Below, one piece after another: positions 780 through 8,132 of a stretch of 64,000 nt of DNA (position 1 is its first letter; each line of letters opens with the position of its first letter). This stretch comes from Cryobacterium sp. PH29-G1 (GTDB lineage Bacteria; Actinomycetota; Actinomycetes; Actinomycetales; Microbacteriaceae), in assembly GCF_030063365.1 (NCBI RefSeq), contig NZ_JASISY010000005.1, positions 1-64,000 on the forward strand. Reading direction: 5' to 3'. The position numbers were made by a program, and so were the translations under genes. The notes under the pieces were generated by a model. That model had not been told where the DNA came from, did not search any database, and saw nothing but the letters and a program-made list of their open reading frames with translations.

Positions 780-1324
780 GGGCCCCGGGCCCCGGGCCCC
801 GGGCCCACCTTATGCAACCGGGCCCACGATAGAACATGGGCCCACTTTCCGGGCCCGGGCCCGGACACTAAAACCAGGGCACTCCGGGCGACCCAAGCAC
901 GGGCGGCCACCCCACGAGCCAACGGCTGCAGCATCCGCCCGCCTAACCATGCCCAACGCCCGCGGCCAGCCAGCTTTCGGACCGGCCAGACTTCGGACCG
1001 GCCAGACTTCGGACCGGCCAGACTTCGGGCCGGCCAGACTTCGGGCCCACCTTATGCAACCGGGCCCACGATAGAACATGGGCCCAGTCGCACACCCTGG
1101 GCCCCACCACCCCACACCCGCAAAACGGATGCCCGGGCCCGGACCCGGAAAGCGGGCCCACCTTACGAAAACAGCGCATCTCAGCCCAACGGGCAAACCG
1201 CAAGAAACCCGCGCCGCGCACCTTCGCGGAATTCCCCCGCCCAGAGCCCACCCCACCCAACCGGGCCCACCCTATGCAACCGGGCCCACGATAGAACATG
1301 GGCCCAGCTTCCGGGCCCGGGCCC
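780..1324. repeat. GGGCCC-rich palindromic repeat block with three copies of a 44-bp module
   Basis: This lies in an ~840-bp gene-free stretch between the rrn promoters and the acetyltransferase gene. I count 19 GGGCCC hexamers in 545 bp, some back to back (780-806 with a 7-bp period; 851-862 and 1313-1324 with a 6-bp period). A 44-bp module occurs at 801-844, 1043-1086 and 1263-1306; the third copy differs from the first at one base. The module has three GGGCCC sites separated by fixed non-palindromic spacers (ACCTTATGCAACC and ACGATAGAACAT). A partial copy starts at 1154. Open frames here give only Pro/Arg/Gly-rich translations that follow the repeat, so I regard it as non-coding. Function is unknown. 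Confidence 0.85.
976..1039. repeat. four tandem copies of a 16-bp repeat
   Basis: The unit TTCGGACCGGCCAGAC repeats at 976-991, 992-1007, 1008-1023 and 1024-1039; the last has one A-to-G change. Each unit carries the self-complementary core CCGG. The array sits directly in front of the second 44-bp GGGCCC module and reads into it. Confidence 0.9.
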
Positions 1325-3340: not shown

Positions 3341-3400
3341 GGGTTCAGATTACCAGCCGTGGCTACCCCGACGGTTTACCGGTGGCATCCGTTATCAGCA

Positions 3401-3458
3401 ATTCAGTCTATATCCTATATTTGGTTTAATTTAGCCTGAGGACTAAATTAGACTGAAT
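3401..3458. promoter_or_regulatory. nested inverted repeats upstream of satD (candidate operator)
   Basis: ATTCAGTCTA at 3401-3410 is matched perfectly by TAGACTGAAT at 3449-3458. A second pair, TAATTTAG (3426-3433) and CTAAATTA (3443-3450), lies inside it. The segment is strikingly AT-rich for this genome and ends about 20 bp before the satD start, so it very probably covers the satD promoter. Because SatD carries a C-terminal helix-turn-helix, autoregulation is a reasonable guess. Confidence 0.55.
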
Positions 3459-3478
3459 TCAGGATGGAGCTTCAGATC

Positions 3479-7987: not shown

Positions 7988-8048
7988 GGTTCTCCCTAAA
8001 TCTTGATCTGTCTAAAGTTTACGTGTTGGGGCGATGGTCCCAGTCGCC

Positions 8049-8132
8049 GGGCCCAGCTTCATTGTCCGGGCCCGGGCCCGGGCCGTGGGCCCATGATCTA
8101 TCCTGGGCCCGGTTTCCGGGCCCGGGCCCGGG
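8049..8132. repeat. second GGGCCC-rich palindromic repeat block, between argF and argG
   Basis: Seven GGGCCC hexamers in about 80 bp. TGGGCCCATGATCTATCCTG and the GGGCCC overlapping its 3' end (8086-8110) form an inverted-orientation copy of part of the 44-bp module at 801-844, with two mismatches over 25 bases. It is flanked on both sides by CCGGGCCCGGGCCCGGG (8067-8082 and 8117-8132). It occupies the argF-argG gap, where many actinobacteria carry argR. It could fold into several alternative hairpins in the mRNA. Confidence 0.85.

Follow-up and report, generated by a model that had tools for sequence, protein, structure and literature searches.

What is the dense array of GGGCCC hexamers that separates an rRNA operon from its neighbouring gene in Cryobacterium sp. 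PH29-G1, and does it belong to that operon? The window analysed here, a stretch of 64,000 nucleotides, represents the start of contig 27 of a draft genome (3.80 Mb, 31 contigs). At its left edge lies the 5′ end of a 16S rRNA gene on the minus strand (1–103; Rfam RF00177), which starts at position 103 and whose rrn operon continues leftward beyond the window. The array fills the space between the 16S gene and the next minus-strand gene. Exactly 19 GGGCCC hexamers were counted at positions 780–1324 (545 bp), the number given by the original prediction. An independent-bases model leads to about 74 hexamers per 64 kb and thus to well under one in 545 bp. The whole window contains 39, and since just 13 remain once this block and a related one about 7 kb away (8049–8129, seven GGGCCC) are excluded, the motif is otherwise scarce in the window. 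Besides the second block, the prediction had correctly noticed three near-identical 44-bp modules, starting at 801, 1043 and 1263, the third of which carries C instead of T in ACC(C/T)TATG, as well as runs of short spacing, namely a 7-bp tandem run (777–806) and two 6-bp runs (849–864 and 1311–1326).

At 780–1324, partial copies of a dispersed hairpin element, which belongs to a clade within Cryobacterium, have piled up locally. The block comprises three M-core copies, two of which carry P arms and the third a degenerate right arm, in addition to fragments; the element copies all lie on the minus strand. The 7-bp run, 4.3 copies of CCCGGGC according to tandem-repeat analysis, forms the degenerate head of the array. 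Element 1 is composed of the M arm GGGCCCACCTTATGCAACC (801–819, assigned from hexamer positions and comparison of copies), a 24-bp core of type A with the GATAGAACAT loop variant (820–843, core matching) and the P arm CCGGGCCCGGGCCCGG (849–864, sequence reading and tandem-repeat analysis). Element 2 (1043–1104) contains an M arm (1043–1061), a core (1062–1085) and a degenerate M-like right arm that extends to 1104, and element 3 (1263–1326) an M arm (1263–1281), a core (1282–1305) and a P arm (1311–1326), with a fold z of −4.57. In a core-less element recognised by sequence reading (1133–1172), a variant P arm is directly followed by an M-like segment. A 16-bp tandem repeat (TTCGGACCGGCCAGAC, 4.3 copies, 98% matches) occupies 976–1044 between the array elements; similar units adjoin arrays at other contig ends (L001, L006). 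The P arm of element 3 points to the 3′ end (about 1406) of the neighbouring minus-strand gene, an open reading frame at 1406–1954 which the codon-pair caller ends at 1822 and which, judged by eye, looks like a GNAT acetyltransferase. The second block is a P-core-P element on the minus strand (8047–8131), with P arms at 8066–8081 and 8116–8131, the core at 8087–8110 and a fold z of −4.90; a partial arm on the same strand lies beside it at 8049. It occupies the gap from the 3′ end of argF (about 8150) to the start of argG (7987), both genes being named by eye.

A full copy of the element is about 70 bp long and has three parts, a P arm, the 24-bp core GGGCCC-N12-GGGCCC and an M or P arm. The P arm is palindromic and reads CCGGGCCCGGGCCCGG in type A and GGACGGGGCCCRGGCCCCGTCC in type B. 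The M arm is CATAAGGTGGGCCC, in place of which some copies have a second P arm, and the type B loop is AGTTTATAAACT. The core forms a hairpin with a covarying outer stem of 4 bp. In P-core-M copies, P arm, five-base linker, core, five-base linker and M arm are colinear and gapless, as seen in 34 copies of the own genome and in 71 copies of types A and B. The suggestion that the whole module is conserved, beyond the palindrome itself, is borne out. The module is also not unique to 780–1324, and the repeat family that had been proposed is real: with up to three mismatches allowed, a search for the 24-bp core gives 69 strand matches across the PH29-G1 genome and none for a backward control, and the exact pattern GGGCCC-N12-GGGCCC occurs 74 times as opposed to 3 for its control. 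At a core distance of at most 4, this genome holds 71 sequence-distinct copies, a count that covers the window and the stretches around core matches, with identical copies counted once. Their arms fall into the classes P-M (28), P-P (13), M-P (12) and M-M (6), with 12 unassigned.

A regulatory array specific to the rrn operon would suit a location between this operon and its neighbour gene, and contigs C2, C13 and C15 also start or end in similar arrays. However, the same cores are spread genome-wide, and in the relative G010 the gene beside the rrn operon reads alike although the array is missing there. This explanation is hardly credible and was rejected; since the element is genome-wide, the link of the array with the rrn operon is incidental. 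Because the genome is a draft of 31 contigs with similar arrays at contig starts and ends, the array lengths may be collapsed. Type B cores, two in each case, also adjoin the rrn leader at contig starts of G013 and G018 (L317, L318). Those of G013 read as M-core-P, next to a gene that reads like ahcY, and on the own contig 13 type A copies lie beside a gene similar to this one (L006).

The placement of the copies follows the 3′ ends of genes. The window and 80 Cryobacterium loci supplied 0.5 Mb of coding sequence on which a codon-pair gene caller was trained. With its calls, 56 of the 71 copies were assigned to a gap, of which 26 lie between convergent, 29 between tandem and 1 between divergent genes; 15 stayed unplaced. 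Background gaps of at least 60 bp in the same DNA, that is, in the window and in the 80 loci chosen because they contain elements, number 72 convergent, 204 tandem and 86 divergent. Divergent gaps are therefore avoided (Fisher p = 2.5e-5) and convergent gaps are in excess (Fisher p = 5.9e-5). Two copies (L018, L042) fall inside open reading frames of the caller. In 75 cases in which the orientation of the P arm was considered, it faces a gene 3′ end in 54 and a 5′ end in 16, 5 being unassigned, and for 40 of the 54 the core is no more than 75 bp from the stop codon. Ahead of the P arm the sequence is C-rich (0.45) and then T-rich (0.39), with runs of four or more T in 12 of 70 stretches before the arm. 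Beyond the M side, no such run was found in the 45 flanks that fitted the search, so that the hairpin is not followed by a U-tract. The copies are thus short repeated palindromes, intergenic and chiefly 3′-flanking, as REPs are in the broad sense, and GC-rich hairpins that follow a stop codon closely, as in a terminator. The hexamer CGGATG/CATCCG occurs within 45 bases past the M arm in 9 of 45 own flanks, before the P arm in 6 of 70 stretches, and in 64 of 1422 background 45-mers.

Compensatory changes support the stem of the core. In the 34 own P-core-M copies, one pair of the outer stem is C-G in 21, G-C in 10 and different in 3, and the next pair is U-A in 14, C-G in 10, U-G in 9 and different in 1, with no C-A. 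The covariation score of these type A copies is 0.111 compared with 0.061 after shuffling. For type B alone (37 copies, mostly from relatives) it is 0.122 compared with 0.059, and the pair next but one to GGGCCC appears as C-G (10), A-U (8), G-C (6), U-A (1), U-G (1) or otherwise (11); at the two variable positions, 11 and 9 of the 37 copies are unpaired. These within-type scores are what the pairing argument rests on. When both types are combined (71 copies), pairing is 92.8% compared with 74.5%, four outer-stem pairs and three loop pairs vary on both sides, and the score reaches 0.400 (shuffled 0.136; slid controls at most 0.138), a value raised by the A/B split, since relatedness is lost on shuffling. 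Pairs with a change on either side of the stem at once are no more numerous than in the shuffles (7 and 6.5 for both types; 3 and 2.6 for type B). The P arm covaries as well, with a score of 0.244 (shuffled 0.078; slid by one column 0.142), but of its pairs the two next to the outer ones fail to form in 29 and 33 of the 71 copies. Two folds compete, either separate P and core hairpins or pairing of the P arm with the M arm around the core; fold z values of four copies, one of them from G018, range from −4.57 to −5.96.

A strand-specific wobble was considered as proof of RNA. At the outer core pair, the ratio of G-U to C-A is 12:0 in the own copies, 15:9 in copies of relatives whose P arm resembles that of type A, a few of which belong to type B, and 2:4 in type B, so that the candidate proof held in the own copies and failed in type B. 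Since the G-U bias of the own type A copies is missing in type B, a role as RNA is not secured. The original prediction had left a choice between a mobile palindromic element, a protein-binding array and a structured RNA. With compensatory changes both within and between the types, the structured reading, be it as an RNA hairpin or as a DNA cruciform, is the best supported of the three. A known RNA family was rejected: at gathering thresholds, an Rfam scan of the window returned the SSU rRNA alone, and for one copy (L036, 850–1150) the best score below threshold was 21.5 against 36 bits.

How far the element extends was assessed in related genomes. The exact pattern GGGCCC-N12-GGGCCC is present in 97 of 150 genomes of the family sample, most having 0–5 occurrences, which corresponds to the control level; in G080, G098 and G135, 8–12 occurrences face controls of 6–19. 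Clear exceptions are PH29-G1 (74 compared with 3), G013 of the same genus (58 compared with 4) and G126 of another genus (24 compared with 1). A pattern scan of named genomes gave at least 80 loci, all from Cryobacterium among the matches listed. Type A was matched in 13 of 60 genomes including the own one, all 13 among the 37 genus members, and in none of 23 order-level genomes outside the genus, and type B in 16 of 57 genus genomes, again including the own one. Type A strand hits, which count both strands and are upper bounds, and type B copies amount to 80/1 in PH29-G1, 57/7 in G036, 53/14 in G035, 26/21 in G020, 24/32 in G014, 21/29 in G015, 10/63 in G018, 3/60 in G013, 3/10 in G029, 1/47 in G010, 1/38 in G009 and 1/36 in G032. 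For genomes outside the type A search, type B copies number 12 in G061, 0 in G060, 54 in G214, 6 in G219 and 2 in G224.

In a three-locus tree of 17 genomes, in which several deeper forks are weak and from which G214, G219 and G224 were left out, the carriers and the near-empty G060 form one clade, with G061 outside. A one-locus tree puts G033, with a single type A hit at three mismatches, in a different position. The genomes G018 and G036 are sisters (support 99.7/100; 91.7% identity), as are G010 and G020 (support 100/100). The sister species G018 and G036 differ in the predominant type, type B in the former and type A in the latter. Type B is probably older than type A, given its presence in one genome outside the main clade, G061.

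Three sites, argF–argG, L036 and L058, were compared across species and were readable in 29, 25 and 25, respectively, of the best 30 loci of 41 genomes. Depending on the species, they hold type A, type B, a solo P arm (G018 and G020 at L058; G014 and G035 at argF–argG), a core-less copy or no element, the last being true for G060 and G029 at argF–argG and L058 and for G010 at L036. Some non-carriers have unrelated hairpins at these sites. Several element-free species have short argF–argG gaps that lack a strong hairpin (L178–L185, z from 1.6 to −2.1), so the sites cannot all be old terminator places. A different hairpin, GTTCCGGTCGAGAGTGCCCG..., was observed in the argF–argG gap of the non-carrier species G012, G026 and G008 (L167, L177, L186) and may represent another lineage-specific repeat family.

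At orthologous sites one type stands where a relative has the other. Of 52 sites read in G018 (43 type B, 9 type A), the 27 with both flanks in the stretches of own DNA covered were compared, giving 21 B-A pairs, one A-A pair, three sites with no own core and two with multiple cores. Arms were kept in all 20 informative B-A pairs and orientation in all 17 with unlike arms; in the single A-A pair the arms were not kept. G214 yielded 12 B-A pairs among 15 sites, with arms kept in 12/12 and orientation in 9/9. Between the sisters, reading from G036 to G018, 10 of 17 sites are A-B (1 A-A, 4 with none, 2 multiple), with arms kept in 7 of 9 pairs, different in 2 of 9, and orientation kept in 5/5; from G018 to G036, 6 of 12 are B-A, with arms kept in 4/5 and orientation in 2/2. 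In a further comparison, arms and orientation agree in 27/27 informative A-B pairs, and arms differ in 6 of 38 A-A orthologues. As the own DNA was selected around type A copies, these figures describe agreement where both genomes have a copy and not a rate of loss. At convergent own sites with unlike arms, orientation was kept in 9/9 cases; at such sites either direction satisfies the rule that the P arm faces a stop codon.

Sequence identity within one genome is high, 85.4% among own type A copies (45 copies), 87.3% among type B copies of G018 (27) and 82.3% among those of G214 (12). A-B orthologues share 66.7% (G018, 18 pairs) and 69.0% (G214, 10 pairs), values that are low partly by choice since the pairs were picked as A-B. 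Their flanks are 84.4% and 84.7% identical, and all pairs of an own type A with a G018 type B copy average 65.9%. The telling points are the number of orthologues that differ in type and the fact that a common place adds almost nothing to likeness. The high identity within genomes, the resemblance of A-B orthologues to random A-B pairs and the difference in type between sisters suggest that the copies of one genome evolve in concert, in place, as it seems. Across the type change, place leaves only a faint mark on the outer M arm (P = 0.049 for the variable part and 0.063 for the whole arm; 16 sites). Only roughly six to eight arm chimaeras were recognised by eye among the 40 module-linkage rows listed, in a table where loose labelling of the CGACC arms blurs the classes.

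The shared sites could also reflect target choice and not ancestry, if two mobile families, A and B, inserted independently into the same hot spots behind genes. Near-identical dispersed copies, the element-free sites in clade members, the solo P arms, which could be targets or remnants, and the sequence just beyond the element, which is hardly alignable between orthologues, are all in line with such insertion. However, independent insertion fits poorly with the complete agreement of arms and orientation in the 27 informative A-B pairs and at the nine convergent unlike-armed own sites. Moreover, no target duplication was seen at the three orthologous sites read (argF–argG, L036, L058), nor was a clean insertion scar, the gaps being too diverged or collapsed. 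A link to RAYT was rejected because the Y1 transposase (PF01797) was found neither in the own genome nor in any of 57 genus genomes (control, 5 of 14), and carriage by phages because viral contigs hold no exact match to either core pattern. Two mobile families are thus considered unlikely. Of the mobile palindromic element that had been proposed, what stands is indirect: where both genomes carry a copy, the sites are shared and the sequence type changes, and the three sites lack a clean scar.

Alternatively, the copies could be neutral or selfish palindromes, kept perfect by quasipalindrome correction or template switching, in which covariation reflects copying and a cellular role is absent. 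Stems that are mostly Watson-Crick, the inconsistent G-U bias and apparent slippage products based on GGGCCC (tandem runs, core-less and solo-P copies) would agree with this, but the avoidance of divergent gaps and the P arms facing stop codons imply selection or targeting, and sites are common to several species; we regard the idea as quite unlikely. Sites acting on the DNA level, bound by gyrase, nucleoid or other proteins or extruded as cruciforms, would account for a core that is a 24-bp dyad on DNA and for the absence of the G-U asymmetry in type B, and the two types could correspond to two specificities of a protein that coevolves. A fixed protein site, however, would not need the variable positions beside GGGCCC to covary within a copy, and placement follows gene 3′ ends; DNA-level sites are considered quite unlikely as well. 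The protein-binding array is not supported as such. As a whole, the earlier interpretation is partly supported: the conserved module and the repeat family hold, structure is the best supported of its three readings, and the rrn link is incidental.

With slightly better than an even chance, we interpret the element as a REP-like 3′-end hairpin, probably a terminator or mRNA-end element, which is homogenised genome-wide without RAYT. Dispersal, 3′-end placement, pairing and the interchange of types A and B at the same orthologous sites and in the same orientation were established by computation; termination and the mechanism of homogenisation are proposed as follows. Points that weigh against the reading are the missing U-tract, the sites with neither the element nor a strong hairpin, the inconsistent G-U bias, the small number of arm chimaeras, the weak trace of place in the M arm and the arms that differ in some orthologous pairs. 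Once transcribed, the element would fold into a clustered hairpin without U-tail, which may end or protect the 3′ end of the mRNA, from both sides in the case of P-core-P elements between convergent genes. Ectopic conversion or template switching via the shared GGGCCC palindromes might maintain the likeness of the copies within one genome, which would allow a new type to sweep through existing sites. Slippage on GGGCCC repeats could generate arrays, core-less copies and solo P arms. As an alternative driver, selection could act through a coevolving reader of the hairpin. Tentatively, and with somewhat less than an even chance, the two types may be understood as a terminator dialect: the type of the 3′-end hairpins (P arm, stem and loop) would be rewritten genome-wide, in place and orientation, between sister species, by conversion at GGGCCC or by a coevolving factor, without a RAYT-type transposase.

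REPs and BIMEs are described, in the parts of the sources consulted, as short dispersed palindromes between tandem or convergent genes that are often clustered and have lineage-specific types (PMC3733652; for REPINs PMC3116915, PMC8049555). The Cryobacterium element resembles them in being short, palindromic, dispersed, often clustered, located between tandem or convergent genes, likely transcribed as a hairpin and divided into lineage-specific types. It differs in its length of about 70 bp, its three-part build with a GGGCCC-N12-GGGCCC core and the replacement of its type in place at shared sites. The consensus sequences of A1 and A3 have no unpaired GTAG/CGTC tag, and the CGTC seen in type B is part of the paired P arm. 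Both the tags and RAYT are missing. The statement that the array matches no recognised REP or BIME proved correct.

What keeps the REP-like repeats of one bacterial genome similar to each other has long been asked: a 1988 review, seen as an entry in the reference list of PMC3116915, asks in its title whether REPs evolve by gene conversion. In our judgement, gene conversion of REPs is hard to test where sites and sequences turn over together. Here, sites are shared while the type switches between sisters, and conversion, reinsertion and coevolution consequently make different predictions. If the hairpins end transcripts, terminators would evolve as one family and not gene by gene.

For intrinsic and clustered-hairpin terminators, PMC8355165 places 98% of the sites it scores as correct no further than 80 bases from the stop codon, and a section heading of that paper states that poly A/U trails are not necessary. 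The Cryobacterium copies are likewise GC hairpins, often two close by. Unlike intrinsic terminators, they have no U-tract, their repeat sequence is conserved beyond what a terminator needs, and they are known from sequence alone. A further comparison is offered by DNA uptake sequences (DUS), which are about 10–12 bases long. In the Neisseriaceae, DUS dialects are described, in the sections consulted, as a repeat changed genome-wide between related species, with inverted pairs in terminators (PMC3630211). In both cases a repeated sequence differs across whole genomes from one species to a related one, whereas the Cryobacterium copies are about 70 bp long, structured and mainly intergenic, and the window has few GGGCCC outside the two blocks. 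Among the matches listed from the open-licence literature, no report of such a repeat in Cryobacterium was found; term searches in two genome papers on Cryobacterium turned up nothing pertinent, and the main text of a 2025 REP survey, as far as it was covered, does not name Cryobacterium (PMC12306157).

The same core design is found in G126, which belongs to another genus of the family. Loops like GGTGAATTCACC or GGGATATCTCCC occur in most of its 24 exact matches, and 12 loci read (L271–L282) show a longer stem that, by eye, seems to covary. Both loops and arms of this repeat (arms GGCCCGCGAAAACTGCAC...) differ from those of the Cryobacterium element; shared origin and convergence are both possible.

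Within the window, an inverted repeat ATTCAGTCTA...TAGACTGAAT at about 3398–3460 looks like an operator. It is situated just upstream of a plus-strand gene at about 3463 that, judged by eye, may encode a SatD-like regulator.
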